Origin: a virus
Direction: 5' to 3' (one strand)
DNA length: 22,251 nt
Virus record (IMG/VR): IMGVR_UViG_3300034073_002803
Location: 1 to 22,251 of that record
Positions 1,266 through 22,251 of this stretch are shown here, one piece after another. How positions within the stretch are numbered: the stretch's first letter is position 1; the number at the start of each line of letters is the position of its first letter. The position numbers and the translations under genes were made by a program. Under the pieces are notes generated by a model that saw only the letters and a program-made list of their open reading frames with translations, had not been told where the DNA came from and ran no database searches.

Positions 1266-1916
1266 TTAGAAGCAGGCTGCGCCGTCTGCCACTTTCAAGT
1301 CATCACCAGCCTGATCACAAAAACAGACAATATTGGCGGTGTCATTATAGAAGATTGTCCCCTCTGGAAATGTGCCGCACGGATCGGACGTCTCAAATTC
1401 TAATTTGAGCGCGGCGCTAACTTCGACAACAGGAGATGTTAAGAGGATAGTGCCATCAGTGCTGTTGTCAATCGTTTCGCCATTGACTAATGTCACAACG
1501 CCTGTGCTTTCAATTGCAAACTTTTCAGCGGCGGCGGCTCCGGCGGCCATGAGTTTGACTGAAAAAGAGGCATCTTCTGACGTTGCGGTCGCGTCGTCAA
1601 TCACGGCGTCTAATTGCATGACGGTCTCATTGTTTGCCGCGCTGGTTTCCTGGACAAATGACGCTCCGACTCCGATCCCCGTCGCAGGGGTTCCGCTGGT
1701 TTGGTGCGTCAACGTAGCGGGACGGCTCACGGTATTCGTCAATGCCGTGTTGGTGGTACTGTCAGTCGATGACAACGTCACGGAAAAATTTCCGTTGCTG
1801 TCGAGAGCGCCTGACAAAATCTGCTCAACTGTTCCTACTCTGGTTTCTGCCGCAACAATTGTTAATGTGAACATCAACACAAGCAGGCTTGCAAGAATAT
1901 ATATGCGTTTTTTCAT
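1266..1916 (-). CDS. Exported protein with signal peptide in the capsid operon
   Basis: A 216-aa protein. Residues 1-24 form a classic signal peptide: MKKR, a hydrophobic core (ILASLLVLMFTLTIV), then a likely cleavage after Ala in 'VAA-ET'. The mature part is Ser/Thr/Ala-rich and beta-prone, with no further membrane segment. The C-terminus carries a Cys cluster (one Cys near 'SDPCGTF', then CFC, then a final ACF) after a 'GTIFYNDTANIV' stretch, a tail seen on surface and fibre-like proteins. SD AAGGGA precedes ATG 1916. It sits between the major capsid and connector genes, an odd place for an exported protein. It could be a virion decoration or a host-surface protein; function unknown. Confidence 0.7.
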   Translation of the reverse strand: MKKRIYILASLLVLMFTLTIVAAETRVGTVEQILSGALDSNGNFSVTLSSTDSTTNTALTNTVSRPATLTHQTSGTPATGIGVGASFVQETSAANNETVMQLDAVIDDATATSEDASFSVKLMAAGAAAAEKFAIESTGVVTLVNGETIDNSTDGTILLTSPVVEVSAALKLEFETSDPCGTFPEGTIFYNDTANIVCFCDQAGDDLKVADGAACF

Positions 1917-4762: not shown

Positions 4763-6073
4763 TTAGCGGATTTCTTTCCATTGGATTGCCGCCCTGACGG
4801 AGCTGTCACTGGTTGACGTCCTAATCGCCGCAATCGTCAAAATGTCTGACGTCCCCGTGCGACGCAAGGAGAGAATAGTCTTGCCGAGCAGTCCTGATAC
4901 TTGTGTCAGGCTATTCCGCCCCGTCGCCAAAAAATCAGAGAAAATCACGGTTCCCCCGCTCACGACAGTGGCGGCGGTATCAACGTCCATTCCACTTGTC
5001 GCGCCAACTGATGCGAAATTCGCGCCAATGAGGGTCGGTCGGTATAAAATGACATACCTGATCGGGTTATCCCCTGTCACGGTAAACCCGTCAGGCACGT
5101 AAAGCCCGCGATTCGTCAGGCTGTTGAATGTGGCGGATGGGCGGATGGACATAATGGGGATAAGCGTCGTGCTGACAGTCTTTGCTCCTGTTCCTGTATC
5201 GGCTGACCGCTGAAGCCCTGGTAACGATCTCAGGTCAAGACCACCCTCACTCTTGACGGTCGCGCAAATCGCCCGCATGGTTGCCGAGGCATTCGCGGCA
5301 AGGCGATAGCGCAGGCCGATGGCATTGGACGTGTCACCGTAGCCCATCTCAGCATACGTGTATGTCGCATCGTTGTAAATCCTCCAAAAGATAGGGAGCG
5401 TCGGCGTCTGCCAATAGCCCGTTGCCCGAATATTGTCATTATAAATCTCATGAAGAGGAACTGGGGAGCCATTTCTCACAAGCGCGAATCTGATGCGCCC
5501 AACTTTCAGGCTTTGAAAGTCAATGCTCAAAATCTGAGAGGTTGACCAATCAACATCAGATACGCTATTTTTGTTCCAGACGCTTTGCGCGTATGTGGTT
5601 TCTGTCGTTGACCCGCTAATGGACGTGCGTAGAAACAAAAACGCGATTCCGGTTCCGATGTCTGCGTTGTCAAGCGTTCCTGTAATGTCAATGAGGGCGC
5701 TGTTCCCTGGAGTGTATGGAATGTCATAACTATAGAGCGCGGCGCTTGTGCCGTTGGTCACTTCGGTCGTTGCTAACACGACATCCCTGGCGTTCGCGTT
5801 GTGTGTGACTGTCGCGTTGCCTGATTTCACTTCGTCGATGATGTCTGGCTGTTTCCCATAGATAAACTCGACATCTAACCGCTGTCCCGTATCAGAGACG
5901 CGCTGACGTCCGAAGGCATCCAGGTTGAGGCTGTCTGGCGTCGTTGACTGGATGCTGTTGGTAGTTGCGTCATAAATGTTATTCAGGATAACATTGTCTG
6001 GATAATTTGACCCAAAAATAACAATGACGGGAATGGTGAGAATACAAAGTGATACAAGTGCAAATTTTTTCAT
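4763..6073 (-). CDS. Fibre-like or surface protein with signal peptide
   Basis: A 436-aa protein. Residues 1-21 form a signal peptide (MKKFALVSLC..IPVIVIFG). Residues about 50-80 hold 'DAFGRQRVSDTGQRLDVEFIYGKQPDIIDE', a motif I know from phage fibre/virion surface proteins that begin a beta-rich module. The rest is a 350-residue beta-sandwich-like body rich in Thr, Ser, Asn and Arg, with a C-terminal strand 'AAIQWKEIR'. AAGGAGG precedes ATG 6073. It follows another fibre-like gene by 10 nt. A leader peptide on such a protein is unusual: it may be exported to the cell surface, or the hydrophobic N-terminus may serve another role. Receptor binding is a guess. Confidence 0.65.
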   Translation of the reverse strand: MKKFALVSLCILTIPVIVIFGSNYPDNVILNNIYDATTNSIQSTTPDSLNLDAFGRQRVSDTGQRLDVEFIYGKQPDIIDEVKSGNATVTHNANARDVVLATTEVTNGTSAALYSYDIPYTPGNSALIDITGTLDNADIGTGIAFLFLRTSISGSTTETTYAQSVWNKNSVSDVDWSTSQILSIDFQSLKVGRIRFALVRNGSPVPLHEIYNDNIRATGYWQTPTLPIFWRIYNDATYTYAEMGYGDTSNAIGLRYRLAANASATMRAICATVKSEGGLDLRSLPGLQRSADTGTGAKTVSTTLIPIMSIRPSATFNSLTNRGLYVPDGFTVTGDNPIRYVILYRPTLIGANFASVGATSGMDVDTAATVVSGGTVIFSDFLATGRNSLTQVSGLLGKTILSLRRTGTSDILTIAAIRTSTSDSSVRAAIQWKEIR

Positions 6074-11737: not shown

Positions 11738-13219
11738 TCAGAAAATATTTCCATTTTCTCCAGATTGCCTATTTTCGCCTTTTATTTGCACAAAATATCC
11801 TCTTTTACCGCTATCTGACGTGACGCCCTTTTCGTATCCAAGCTCTTTCATGACTGCCGCGACATCCATCATGTCCCCCCTGTCCGTCTTGCCTTTATAA
11901 CCTGCGTCATTCAAAACGCGCAGAATCTCCGTTGACGCCGTGATATAGTCGGAACGCTCAAACAGTTCGTTGATGTAATCTTCCAAAATATTCACGCGCC
12001 GGTAGCGTGGCAAAACGTGGATTTGTAAGTCATGCTTGTCGTCTGCTCCGAGGTCTGCCGTTTCACCTTGCTCAACAAGCATCATGATTTGGCCCCAAAG
12101 TTGATCGCGGTCTATCGCTGTTGCATACTCATGCCTGATGCGCGTAATGGTCACGGGGCGATACCTTCTATTGCCTGTGCTGTCAGAGAGGAACCCGGCT
12201 CCGTCGTCATTAATCGTGCCAATGAACGACGCTGTAACAGGCTTATCAACATCATAATGTCCGTAGGGACGTCGTAATGAAAACACGTCTTGTGTGAGAA
12301 ACGCTTTCAGCGCCTCCATATCAGCGCGTCGTGTCGTGCTGCCGAGTTCAACAACTTCCCAAATCCACCGCTCACAGGCCCGAATCATGTGATCTTTGTT
12401 ATCTGGCAAGATGATTGATGAAACAAACACGTCATCAACCGGGCAGAGCCAGCGGACAAAATAGCCTTTCCCGACCCCTTGCGACCCCATCATGACAAAC
12501 ATCGGATTCTGCTCTCGAAAAAGAATCTTTCGCACCGCGCCAATAAGCCATTTCCTGAGATAGAGTGGAAATAATCCGTCCTCATCCTCAAAAAAAGAGC
12601 AAAGATGCTCAAGTTGAGGGCTTCCGTCATAGTGTTGCTTGACAGTTTCAATATATGTTACAATGGGATTATATGGATTCATCGCCGCTGTTGCCGTCAT
12701 CACGCTTCTAATAGCCTCTTGCGAAGAAATGCCAGCGTTCATCATGTGGTAGTGAATTCCTGCAAAGATGGTATCGTTCAGCATTTCGCCATTGACAAAA
12801 ATCGCATCACGTAACGTGTTGTACGTCAGTTTATACCCACGCAAAAGCCATGCGATTTTATCCGCTTTCCGCTCAGGCGTGTCTTCATTCTTCTTGCCAG
12901 AGTCGAGCGTTTTTTTCATTGTGAGATATAAGTCTTTATCAATCTCACGCGCTATCGAAATAATAGGCACGACGGACGGGGTATTCCCATCGCTTTCGAT
13001 ACTATTCCATGCTTTAAAAATGCCTTGCGCCTCATATCCTGGAGACTTTTTGGCAATCGTGACAAAATCATCAAATGGGATGCCGCTGAACTTAAATATT
13101 TTGACATAGTCAATCCACTCGGCGTCTGATAGCCGTTTTTTAAAGCCACGCATAAAGAGCACGCGCAGCGCAGCCTCGAAAGAAATATCATTTGATCTGC
13201 TCTTTTGTAGGTTCTCCAT
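11738..13219 (-). CDS. VapE-type replicative helicase (P-loop ATPase)
   Basis: A 493-aa protein from ATG 13219 (MENLQKSRSND...), chosen for AAGGAG 9 nt upstream; a TTG 21 nt earlier is in frame. Walker A 'GSQGVGKG' is at about 245-252. Downstream come 'RWIWEVVELGSTTRRADMEALKAFLTQ' (Walker B-like Glu and following helix) and 'RRPYGHYDVDKPVTASFIGTINDDGAGFLSDSTGNRRYRPV' (sensor and Arg-finger region), the block that defines the virulence-associated E (VapE) family. These are SF3-like helicases of phages and satellites that unwind DNA at the origin. It overlaps the RHH gene by 32 nt and follows a primase-polymerase, forming a standard pair. The start of the candidate origin abuts its stop. Confidence 0.9.
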   Translation of the reverse strand: MENLQKSRSNDISFEAALRVLFMRGFKKRLSDAEWIDYVKIFKFSGIPFDDFVTIAKKSPGYEAQGIFKAWNSIESDGNTPSVVPIISIAREIDKDLYLTMKKTLDSGKKNEDTPERKADKIAWLLRGYKLTYNTLRDAIFVNGEMLNDTIFAGIHYHMMNAGISSQEAIRSVMTATAAMNPYNPIVTYIETVKQHYDGSPQLEHLCSFFEDEDGLFPLYLRKWLIGAVRKILFREQNPMFVMMGSQGVGKGYFVRWLCPVDDVFVSSIILPDNKDHMIRACERWIWEVVELGSTTRRADMEALKAFLTQDVFSLRRPYGHYDVDKPVTASFIGTINDDGAGFLSDSTGNRRYRPVTITRIRHEYATAIDRDQLWGQIMMLVEQGETADLGADDKHDLQIHVLPRYRRVNILEDYINELFERSDYITASTEILRVLNDAGYKGKTDRGDMMDVAAVMKELGYEKGVTSDSGKRGYFVQIKGENRQSGENGNIF

Positions 13220-13367
13220 GCGTAGAATCTCCTTGCTCAACTAAATATTGTTCGATACATTCTGCCACGAAAAGATTCAAGGGTTTCTCTGCTTGCGTCG
13301 CCGCGATCTTTGCTTTTTTGTGGATTTCAGGGTACAGATTCACGGGAATATACACTCGTTTTTTCAT
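13188..13367 (-). CDS. Small ribbon-helix-helix DNA-binding protein
   Basis: A 59-aa protein (MKKRVYIPVNLYPEIHKK...). A basic beta strand 'KKRVYIPVNL' is followed by two helices, 'YPEIHKKAKIAATQ' and 'KPLNLFVAECIEQYL', the Arc/CopG fold pattern, then a polar tail. ATG 13367 overlaps the primase TAA by one base (TAATG) and its stop lies 32 nt into the helicase gene, so it is coupled to both. CopG-type proteins often control plasmid copy number by repressing rep genes; this could tune the primase-helicase operon or mark the origin. Function inferred. Confidence 0.75.
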   Translation of the reverse strand: MKKRVYIPVNLYPEIHKKAKIAATQAEKPLNLFVAECIEQYLVEQGDSTHGEPTKEQIK

Positions 13368-19575: not shown

Positions 19576-19633
19576 GTTCTTCTCTCCTTGTTACTAAATT
19601 GTTTTAAAAGTGTACGTCAAGGTCGTCTTCATC

Positions 19634-19657
19634 AATTCTCGCTAAATGGCGAGAATT
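19634..19657 (-). promoter_or_regulatory. Leader hairpin of the 19575 operon
   Basis: AATTCTCGC (19634-19642) and GCGAGAATT (19649-19657), perfect 9-bp arms with a 6-nt loop, lie in the 5' leader between the promoter at 19711-19739 and the start codon. It could be a regulatory hairpin or an operator. Confidence 0.4.
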
Positions 19658-19710
19658 TATTTGCATCAACGTTAAGTTGTTTTTGATTCCGTTTCTTAGC
19701 TTGTGAGTAT

Positions 19711-19739
19711 AAGATAATTCTACCAATGAGATTTGTCAA
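19711..19739 (-). promoter_or_regulatory. Promoter of the 19575 operon
   Basis: Minus-strand TTGACA (19739-19734) and TATCTT (19716-19711) with a 17-nt spacer. The -10 box and flanking bases (15 nt, 19703-19717) are identical to those of the promoter at 9899-9927, while the -35 box is TTGACA rather than TTGACT and lacks the AAGTCA/TGACTT operator. Confidence 0.7.
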
Positions 19740-19977
19740 GGACTATTTTAAGAATATTATAAAATTCTTCAAATAGTTTCAAGATAGAATAAATAACGTC
19801 TTAATTTATAAGCATTTATCGCAAAAAATCGGTTGATATTATGTGCGAATGTTTATAAACGAAAGACAAAAAGTATACTTTTTGTCTTGTATTTTTAGAA
19901 AAAAGTTGTTATTTTTAACCCATGTCGAACAAAAAGTCAACAATTTGTCAACAATTTGTCACGAGAGAGGTGAACAC
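19740..19977 (+). promoter_or_regulatory. Candidate centromere/operator region upstream of the actin gene
   Basis: An AT-rich gap containing a perfect 26-bp palindrome (half AAGACAAAAAGTA, 19863-19888) and tandem 11-bp repeats GTCAACAATTT (19936-19946, 19947-19957) followed by another GTCA; a degenerate copy precedes them at 19924. A possible plus promoter is TTGATA (19833-19838) with TATAAA (19854-19859), spacer only 15 nt. Eleven-bp iterons upstream of parM are the hallmark of parC sites bound by ParR, so this may be the centromere and promoter-operator together. Confidence 0.5.
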
Positions 19978-21075
19978 ATGAAAACAGACAGTCAGAATAT
20001 TTGGGTCAACATAGACCCAGGGACATCAACGATTAAAGTCTCGGCCACGCATAATCCGTCCGACCCGTCAACATATTATCGCTTTTCGTTTCTCAACATG
20101 GGACTGAGATGCGGGCAGGATGCCATGCTCGGCTCAGAAGAGTCGTGTATTCTGTCGCCATTCCAGGGTATTGTCGGCGAGCATGTTGCGCCGCTTGACC
20201 CAGAAAACCAGATCGTCCTTGACAACGATTGGACAGACGAGCGGTTGATGTTGCAACTCTTCTGGGCTATCAACCACGCTTGCGACACGTTCTCGCTCGG
20301 AAACGCTGTCAACGTTCATCTCGCGATTGCGCTCCCGGCAGCCAACATCAGCGCAGGGAAGCAACTCAAGAAATATTTGGAGACGCATGTCTGGCCGGGA
20401 AAGAATGCCAGCGATAAATCAGTCTTGCGTGAGCTAACAATTGACGTTACAGTCCGTGAGCAATCCGCGTATGTGCTCACAAGTCAGATTTATGCAATAC
20501 ATGGCAAGGGGAACCACGTAGTGCTGAGTGACGAACGGGGGCGGCAACTGCTCAAAAATGCGCCGGTCATGGTGTTACAATTCGGGTCAAAAACTATCGA
20601 GATCGCCATTATGACGACGCCGACAGACGTCAAGATGGAGTCAATATTTCTTGGGACGTTTAACCTCGTGGAACGTCTGAAAACTGAGGCGTACCGACTG
20701 ACTGGAAAAAATTTCACACGCGTCGACTTGATCAAGTGGACTATCGACGGAACACTGTCATATACCTCGTATGAGGATGGCCGAGTGACCGTTGATGCCA
20801 GTACAGAAGTCACGGACATTCTGTGCGGGCTGTTGCAAGAGCGGGCATTTACGCAAGGGATGCGACGCCTCATCAACAAGTATCAACCGAAAACCTGTCT
20901 TCTGTCTGGCGGCACAGCATTACGAGTGGGGGAAACATTTCAGTCCATGTATTCACATCTGTTCGAAAATTGTGAACCGGTCACGGATGATAAAGGCAAT
21001 CATGACGTGCTCCTTTCCCTCCTGAGCGGGATGGAAAAAGACATGCTCAAAAAAGCCGGGAGGGTAGCCGAATGA
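19978..21075 (+). CDS. ParM-like actin homologue (segregation filament protein)
   Basis: A 365-aa protein from ATG 19978 (MKTDSQNIWVNIDPGTS...), with GAGAGGTG 5 nt upstream; the frame extends to 19843 without an SD. Actin-fold motifs: phosphate-1 'VNIDPGTSTIKV' (10-21), a phosphate-2-like 'VLQFGSKTIEIAIM' and the adenosine loop 'LLSGGTALRVGE'. Plasmid ParM proteins polymerise with ATP and push DNA copies apart through a ParR/parC complex. The usual phosphate-2 Asp ('DIG') is replaced here by Gln-Phe-Gly. Its stop overlaps the next gene (ATGA). The family is clear; partition is inferred from neighbours. Confidence 0.8.
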   Translation: MKTDSQNIWVNIDPGTSTIKVSATHNPSDPSTYYRFSFLNMGLRCGQDAMLGSEESCILSPFQGIVGEHVAPLDPENQIVLDNDWTDERLMLQLFWAINHACDTFSLGNAVNVHLAIALPAANISAGKQLKKYLETHVWPGKNASDKSVLRELTIDVTVREQSAYVLTSQIYAIHGKGNHVVLSDERGRQLLKNAPVMVLQFGSKTIEIAIMTTPTDVKMESIFLGTFNLVERLKTEAYRLTGKNFTRVDLIKWTIDGTLSYTSYEDGRVTVDASTEVTDILCGLLQERAFTQGMRRLINKYQPKTCLLSGGTALRVGETFQSMYSHLFENCEPVTDDKGNHDVLLSLLSGMEKDMLKKAGRVAE

Positions 21076-21326
21076 AAAATGCGCGGCGTGAAAAATTTCT
21101 TGTCTACGTCCAGCCTGGGCACTTAGAACGATGGGAAGAATTAGTGAAGCGATGCGGGGGGTTTTCCCCCGCCATGAATCATCTGTTGACACTTTACGAG
21201 ATGATCCATTATTCACAAATTCCAGTCTATAAAGTCAACGAGCCGCAAACAGGGCAAACCGAAAGCGGGAATGAGGCGGCTGACATGGCAGTCAAGGTGG
21301 AAGAAACCGTTGAATGGAGGTTTTGA
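21072..21326 (+). CDS. Putative ParR-like adaptor
   Basis: An 84-aa protein (MKNARREKFLVYVQPGHL...). A basic N-terminal strand 'REKFLVYVQP' followed by helices 'HLERWEELVKRCGGFSPAMNHLLTLYEMI' fits a ribbon-helix-helix fold, then a polar acidic tail ends in 'VEETVEWRF'. In parMRC systems the gene after parM encodes ParR, an RHH protein that binds parC repeats and, through its C-terminal tail, the ParM filament end. Size, order and overlap all fit; identity is inferred from context, since no exact motif is seen. Confidence 0.6.
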   Translation: MKNARREKFLVYVQPGHLERWEELVKRCGGFSPAMNHLLTLYEMIHYSQIPVYKVNEPQTGQTESGNEAADMAVKVEETVEWRF

Positions 21327-21327
21327 G

Positions 21328-22251
21328 ATGCAAAAAAATAAAAATATCGTCGTCTATGCGTTTTTAGCGGTCGCGATAACCATGATCGCCGCCTCGCTCT
21401 ATCAAAAAGGTGAAATGTGGGTCAAACGGCAAGCCTTCGGCGATGTCTTTGACGCGCAATTGGTCAGGGTGTCGGAAAAGGAGGCTGAACTCCGTGTCGC
21501 ACAACTCGACATGGAGTTGGAGCGCATTGCATATAAGCGATCTCGGATAGGTGAGACGTCCGCCAAAATCCACAGTATCATTCTTATCCTGATTTGTGGC
21601 GGGTTTTTGGTCACGGGGTTGTATGCGACACCGATTTCGTTAGCTCACCTGCGGGCGAATTCTGTCATTGAACAGCATATCGGGTCATCTGTGTTGCGTA
21701 TCCACTTCCAGACGGTCAAGAGTCCTGACTTTGCGCAGTTCATGGGATTAGTCGCGCATATTGAAGGTGTGAGAGCGCAGAATCCTGAGAAGGCGCTTGA
21801 GATGTCATTGCAACTCACAAAAGCGATTACGGGCAGACTTGCCGCGTTGCCACATCCAGTCCAGTCAAGCTCATCTGCTGCGATGCCACAATTGACGCCC
21901 GTGCCGACGTTCCGCCAACTCTATGATGCCGGAAAAGTCGCGCCTGGTCAACCCCTCTGCATGGGTTTTTGTCAAGGGGAGCCGCAAAATAGAAGCATCA
22001 ATGAAATCAGAAGCATGGCCGTCGCAGGAGCACAGGGCAGCGGAAAAACCCTGTCGATTGCGTACCTGATTACAAGCCTGTTGTCAATCGAAAAAGACTC
22101 GCAAGGTTTTGTGATCGATCCTCATCACAAGCATCATGAAGGGCTATGGTCGTACATCTCTCCATTGGAGCAGACTGGAAGGTTGACGCGGGTAGGAGAA
22201 TTTGAATGCCGGGAGCGGATGGAATGGCTACAAGATCGGCTTGACGCTAGT
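21328..22251 (+). CDS. Membrane-anchored FtsK/HerA-type DNA translocase, truncated at the window edge
   Basis: Open from ATG 21328 (GGAGG upstream) to the right edge, 308 residues seen. Two transmembrane helices (about 7-25 and 82-104) bracket a charged coil (45-78) that would lie outside the cytoplasm. A linker is followed by Walker A 'GAQGSGKT' (244-251) and 'FVIDPHHKHHEGLW' (271-284), the His-rich 'D.H' strand typical of HerA/FtsK/VirD4-type ATPases. These hexamers pump DNA through or along membranes. It lies 1 nt past the ParR-like stop, so all three are one operon. It could be a conjugation coupling-type protein, a segregation pump or a phage DNA-delivery motor; the C-terminal half is missing. 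Confidence 0.75.
   Translation, partial: MQKNKNIVVYAFLAVAITMIAASLYQKGEMWVKRQAFGDVFDAQLVRVSEKEAELRVAQLDMELERIAYKRSRIGETSAKIHSIILILICGGFLVTGLYATPISLAHLRANSVIEQHIGSSVLRIHFQTVKSPDFAQFMGLVAHIEGVRAQNPEKALEMSLQLTKAITGRLAALPHPVQSSSSAAMPQLTPVPTFRQLYDAGKVAPGQPLCMGFCQGEPQNRSINEIRSMAVAGAQGSGKTLSIAYLITSLLSIEKDSQGFVIDPHHKHHEGLWSYISPLEQTGRLTRVGEFECRERMEWLQDRLDAS

Follow-up and report, generated by a model that had tools for sequence, protein, structure and literature searches.

Organization of the Operon and Its Genome

The window, a stretch of 22,251 nucleotides of viral DNA (IMG/VR record IMGVR_UViG_3300034073_002803), ends in three closely linked genes on the + strand, which are predicted to encode a filament protein, a small adaptor, and a membrane ATPase. 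Their features, in window coordinates, are as follows.

19863-19888, either strand: perfect 26-bp palindrome AAGACAAAAAGTATACTTTTTGTCTT, with a terminator-like match in both orientations (shuffled sequence would give 0.2)
19928-19960, + strand: candidate parC/operator of three tandem 11-bp units, AACAAAAAGTC/AACAATTTGTC/AACAATTTGTC, from a repeat scan
19978-21075, + strand: probable actin-like (ParM/StbA-like) filament gene, 365 aa (P0002), from motifs and weak ParM matches
20011-20037, + strand: IDPGTSTIK, phosphate-1-type motif of the filament gene
20572-20598, + strand: VLQFGSKTI, phosphate-2-type motif of the filament gene
20899-20913, + strand: LLSGG, adenosine-type motif of the filament gene
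21072-21326, + strand: RHH-like (ParR-like) adaptor gene, 84 aa with an acidic C-terminal tail, from its sequence pattern
21328-22251, + strand: two-TM P-loop ATPase gene, N-terminal 308 codons; the window end cuts the gene
22027-22050, + strand: Walker A GAQGSGKT of the ATPase, residues 234-241
22114-22131, + strand: IDPHHK of the ATPase, residues 263-268

The stop codon of the filament gene overlaps the start codon of the adaptor gene in an ATGA at 21072-21075, and a single base separates the adaptor stop codon (21324-21326) from the ATPase ATG at 21328. The overlap and 1-nt spacing imply co-translation. All three reading frames are intact and have positive codon-based coding scores. An earlier note on this DNA had described the same three linked ORFs, on the strand opposite all phage genes, and both descriptions hold, the latter over the whole 54-kb genome. 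The note had started the filament gene at GTG 19843; the gene stands but this start does not, as ATG 19978, with the SD-like sequence GAGAGAGG just upstream, is likelier.

A larger IMG/VR contig of 54,492 bp (IMGVR_UViG_3300035670_000271; hereafter G001) contains the window, which differs from it by one mismatch in its last bases. The two ends of the contig share an exact 127-bp repeat, and because of this terminal repeat the contig is taken to be a circular assembly. Crude gene prediction yields about 60 genes, on the minus strand throughout except for the triad and one recombinase-like gene, and the complete ATPase gene is followed by minus-strand phage genes. The content is that of a tailed phage: a major head protein, a head maturation protease, a terminase, and a long tape-measure-like gene. 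Genes for DNA metabolism encode a VapE-like helicase, a PrimPol-type primase, an ERF annealing protein, and a YqaJ exonuclease, and the genome also has a dUTPase-like gene and DNA methyltransferases.

The other + strand gene (G001 36130-36864, outside the window) is tyrosine-recombinase-like: its N-terminal domain is SAM-like (PF13495, E = 1.4e-7), and it matches integron/Xer models weakly. Its catalytic part is unrecognized and looks degenerate, the expected HxLR and second His not being seen, and it is possibly an inactive multimer-resolution recombinase. No plasmid-type replication initiator, repressor, or recombinase with intact catalytic residues was recognized in the genome, and for this reason a plasmid-prophage state is something we infer only. 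Likewise, no relaxase, T4SS, or tra genes were recognized in the circular genome, in a search that left out some small ORFs.

Filament Protein, Adaptor, and Upstream Repeats

The phosphate-1, phosphate-2, and adenosine motifs of the filament protein occur in actin-like order and spacing. None of 200,000 shuffled sequences matched this pattern, a result that overstates the case because the pattern was picked after seeing the sequence. In VLQFGSKTI, a Gln occupies the phosphate-2 position where ParM has Asp; this substitution might slow ATP hydrolysis and stabilize filaments. The filament protein matches no family in Pfam, PHROG, NCBIfam, or PADLOC, nor do the R1-type ParM and cyanobacterial ALP_N profiles match it. 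At E < 10, the PDB yields nothing but two ParM proteins from clostridia (E = 0.034 and 0.056), and the only match at E < 10 in a tblastn search of plasmids is Marinobacter ParM/StbA (E = 0.001, vs. 5,000 shuffles). A ParM match in cyanobacterial genomes (L118) was rejected as an oxidoreductase-like protein. AlphaFold predictions from single sequences were uninformative for both the filament protein and the ATPase (pLDDT 34-35), and no fold search was based on them. The ordered motifs and weak matches indicate that the filament protein is probably actin-like (ParM/StbA-like).

The 84-aa protein has a strand-helix-helix pattern (KFLVYVQPGHLERWEELVKRCGGFSPAMNHLLTLYEMI) and an acidic tail, and from this pattern, by eye, we infer that it is RHH-like. 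Pfam/HMM searches gave no RHH family match. A match to the defense protein MADS1 was rejected because it is weak and covers 18 residues only.

With the filament gene starting at ATG 19978, the intergenic regulatory region spans 402 bp (19576-19977). The last two of its three 11-bp units are identical, and the array ends 17 bp before the filament ATG. Nowhere else in the 54.5-kb genome is there an exact head-to-tail repeat whose period falls within 10-24 bp, and AACAATTTGTC occurs at no other place in G001. We regard this iteron array as a candidate centromere. The palindrome, about 40 bp upstream of the 11-bp units, is a possible operator or hairpin.

The Membrane ATPase

In G001, the complete ATPase has 450 aa (L003:10001-11350, P0001). 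Two TM segments (residues 7-25 and 81-99), Walker A, and IDPHHK are all present, as the earlier note had said, and Walker B is D324-E325. The IDPHHK motif corresponds in position to the DPK/DPH motif that follows strand 2 of FtsK/HerA-type ATPases, and it aligns with DPHKQY or DAHGHK of plasmid ATPases.

Family models that had been proposed for comparison (FtsK, HerA/DUF87, and VirD4/TrwB) do match the ATPase, but weakly, and all scores are below curated cut-offs. The FtsK_SpoIIIE Pfam model scores 17.8-18.7 bits (cut-off 24) and DUF87/HerA scores 21.2-21.7 bits (cut-off 23.2), the latter over the P-loop part only. Matches to the T4CP models TrwB_AAD_bind (E = 0.057) and VirD4-like CD1115 (E = 0.03) are far below curated cut-offs. 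The FtsK/SpoIIIE architecture of a 4-TM N-terminus, linker, and gamma DNA-reading domain is absent, as the protein has two TMs and ends soon after the motor core.

T4CPs have two N-terminal TMs followed by the motor, and in those of the VirD4/TrwB type the stretch from Walker A to Walker B contains an inserted all-alpha domain. In the phage ATPase, Lys240 of Walker A and Asp324 of Walker B are only 84 residues apart, and because this spacing is too short, the all-alpha domain is unlikely to be present. Overall, the protein is best described from its motifs and predicted TMs as an FtsK/HerA-superfamily-like ATPase with coupling-protein-like topology. A conjugation operon was rejected because tra and relaxase genes are unrecognized among the ORFs searched and T4CP features fail; no tra genes follow the ATPase, as they would in the conjugation case raised in the earlier note. 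A defense identity was also rejected because the PADLOC matches to mad8 (E = 2e-4) and HerA (E = 0.012) cover the P-loop region only.

The nearest detectable kin of the ATPase are two-TM ATPases on plasmids of heterocystous Calothrix, Nostoc, and Tolypothrix, such as Calothrix AP018295, Nostoc pn6, pNsp_e, and pNe_1, and Tolypothrix PCC 7910. The blastp identity to this plasmid kin is 27% over 160 residues. A profile of the family finds the phage ATPase at E = 1.8e-6 among 5,003 sequences, with the next best shuffle at 0.42. The plasmid ATPases (475-486 aa) resemble it in their P-loop core and RKA motif and, in most, in two N-terminal TMs, but differ in sequence (about 15-27% identity) and are alignable in the motor core only. 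As the likeness is confined to the motor core, a common function does not follow. Forty-six plasmids carry an ATPase of this family. In the neighborhoods examined, plasmid ATPases have hypothetical plasmid genes and no actin-like neighbors, and ATPase matches in cyanobacterial genomes (L120/L123) are likewise plasmid-type two-TM ATPases without actin-like neighbors.

On several of these plasmids (L107:1902-4630, L110, L111, L112, and L113), the two-TM ATPase belongs to a conserved set with a gene of ∼217 aa and a multi-TM gene of ∼193 aa. In L111, a protelomerase-family gene is located ∼6 kb from this set.

Distribution and Comparison with Known Systems

The earlier note had proposed a survey of whether the three genes stay together elsewhere. 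The triad was found in none of the other viral contigs, phages, plasmids, and sampled genomes searched, but because searches of this kind detect distant proteins poorly, failure to find it is no proof of absence. Single-sequence searches of the viral, genome, phage, and plasmid collections returned the parent contig alone. A terminase-based survey drew on 80 distant phages, and neither protein was found in the 47 whole records that were searched, an empty answer that is weak evidence.

The filament and adaptor genes have closer parallels. Plasmid prophages of Bacillus encode ParM-like and RHH proteins (PMC8026635). Like the plasmid prophages B83, IEBH, and Bp8p-C, among others (PMC6669507, PMC8026635), the phage has a gene for a probable ParM-like motor beside that of a small, putatively DNA-binding adaptor. 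In B83 and IEBH, where the papers describe this adjacency, the adaptor is an RHH protein, as proposed here (PMC6669507, PMC8026635). B83 also has a centromere region, plasmid genes on the strand opposing its structural and lytic genes, and recombinase genes on the strand of the module (PMC6669507); the counterparts here are a candidate centromere, an operon opposite the phage genes, and a recombinase-like gene on the operon strand. A ParM gene and an RHH gene on the strand opposing the phage genes are what the literature describes as typical of plasmid prophages (B83 and IEBH). Relative to the B83/IEBH type, the phage differs in a motor without a recognized family match, a third operon gene encoding the two-TM ATPase, and a recombinase-like gene that looks degenerate.

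Genes for FtsK/SpoIIIE proteins are described as frequent neighbors of plasmid segregation systems (PMC9658697). The Bacillus phages Novomoskovsk and Bolokhovo combine an FtsK-superfamily gene and an RHH gene in a tailed-phage genome (PMC9658697), a combination predicted here as well. In contrast to the phage described here, they have Replic_Relax and TrbC and no motor gene, whereas here no relaxase is recognized and motor, adaptor, and ATPase are in one operon. The AlpAC system of Corynebacterium prophage CGP3 likewise has an actin-like protein, a DNA-binding adaptor, and repeats upstream of the operon (PMC4446434). Its adaptor, AlpA, binds these repeats, and AlpC filaments are thought to move the DNA of the phage to the membrane by pushing it (PMC4446434). 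Conversely, its gene order is different, an ATPase gene is unreported, and CGP3 is an integrated prophage (PMC4446434).

Because the ParM and RHH layout of plasmid prophages and nearby FtsK/SpoIIIE genes are already published, the core of the operon is of a known kind. The variant feature is the two-TM ATPase inside the filament/adaptor operon.

Predicted Function of the Operon

In the circular 54-kb genome of this tailed phage, three coupled genes run opposite to the phage genes, and unique iterons precede them. The earlier reading of the first two genes as a ParM/RHH partition pair is supported by motif order, the iterons, and the published plasmid-prophage layout, with the qualification that the actin-like identity is probable only. 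On balance, we lean toward the triad being a maintenance/partition operon of a plasmid-type prophage, which would help the phage to stay in its host as a plasmid, and in which the ATPase is an accessory membrane DNA translocase, its function being predicted. The RHH-like protein would bind the iterons, which would be both centromere and operator, and once bound would cap or seed actin-like filaments that push sister phage-plasmids apart. The ATPase would be a membrane-anchored translocase of the FtsK/HerA superfamily, with two N-terminal TM helices, a helical loop between them, and a compact cytoplasmic motor. Its substrate would be the same DNA, at the membrane or septum, where it would hold phage-plasmid DNA, clear it, or assist in the handling of multimers. 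Action on phage-plasmid DNA, rather than as a conjugation coupling protein, is its most likely role.

With a partition operon of this type, the range of plasmid-prophage partition modules would widen to include a phage lineage that has no close recognized relatives. The presence of filament, adaptor, and membrane ATPase in one operon makes a link between segregation and membrane translocation testable. The finding also points to an uncharacterized ATPase family common on cyanobacterial plasmids.

The operon could instead position DNA during infection, with the filament moving phage DNA to the membrane, the ATPase providing a docking or translocation site, and neither having a role in plasmid segregation. 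CGP3 AlpC/AlpA is a precedent for filaments that take phage DNA to the membrane (PMC4446434), a membrane ATPase expressed together with the filament would suit a membrane receptor, and the lack of a recognized plasmid replication initiator is consistent with this role. But the motor-adaptor order is that of parMR and not of the CGP3 operon (PMC4446434), and the operon stands apart from the lytic genes and on the other strand, an arrangement shared with plasmid prophages of the B83 type (PMC6669507). We consider infection-stage positioning unlikely.

The earlier note had suggested that the operon could couple genome segregation to membrane anchoring. A bolder possibility is a dedicated phage system in which the filament hands adaptor-bound DNA to the membrane translocase of the same operon, so that segregation is coupled to anchoring or pumping. 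To our knowledge, no such hand-over has been described in phages or plasmids, and we hold the proposal to be improbable.

Similarly improbable in our estimate is that the genes are not one system, and that a degenerate actin-like/RHH relic sits beside a captured ATPase of unrelated function, for example in defense or entry exclusion. The failure to find the triad in any other record, the Gln in place of the phosphate-2 Asp, the weak mad8 and HerA matches, and the degenerate look of the other + strand gene would all fit a relic. Against it are the implied co-translation, the intact frames that score as coding, and the absence of defense partner genes from an operon whose PADLOC matches are confined to the P-loop.

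Finally, we give little credence to the ATPase being a conjugation-type coupling or TraB/TcpA-like transfer ATPase of a mobilizable phage-plasmid with the filament genes as mere neighbors: the T4CP-like topology, the weak CD1115 and TrwB matches, the typing of 26 of the 46 cyanobacterial plasmids with ATPase kin as mobilizable, and the adjacency of FtsK/SpoIIIE and Replic_Relax in Bacillus phages (PMC9658697) are set against a 54-kb genome in which relaxase, T4SS, and tra genes are unrecognized and a Lys240-Asp324 interval too short for the all-alpha domain.

Other Features of the Genome

Two more small RHH-type proteins are encoded on the minus strand of the genome (L006:12261-12452 and window 13188-13367), with weak NikA-like and HicB-like matches. 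Two genes of the structural module (window 1266-1916 and 4763-6073) start with signal-peptide-like sequences, MKKRIYILASLLVLMFTLTIVAAE and MKKFALVSLCILTIPVIVIFGS, which is unusual for phage structural genes. At G001 33386-34960 (L006:13386-14960), the phage encodes a DNA methyltransferase with an attached Mrr-type restriction endonuclease domain (PF01555 and PF04471), and this fusion may be a single-chain restriction-modification protein.
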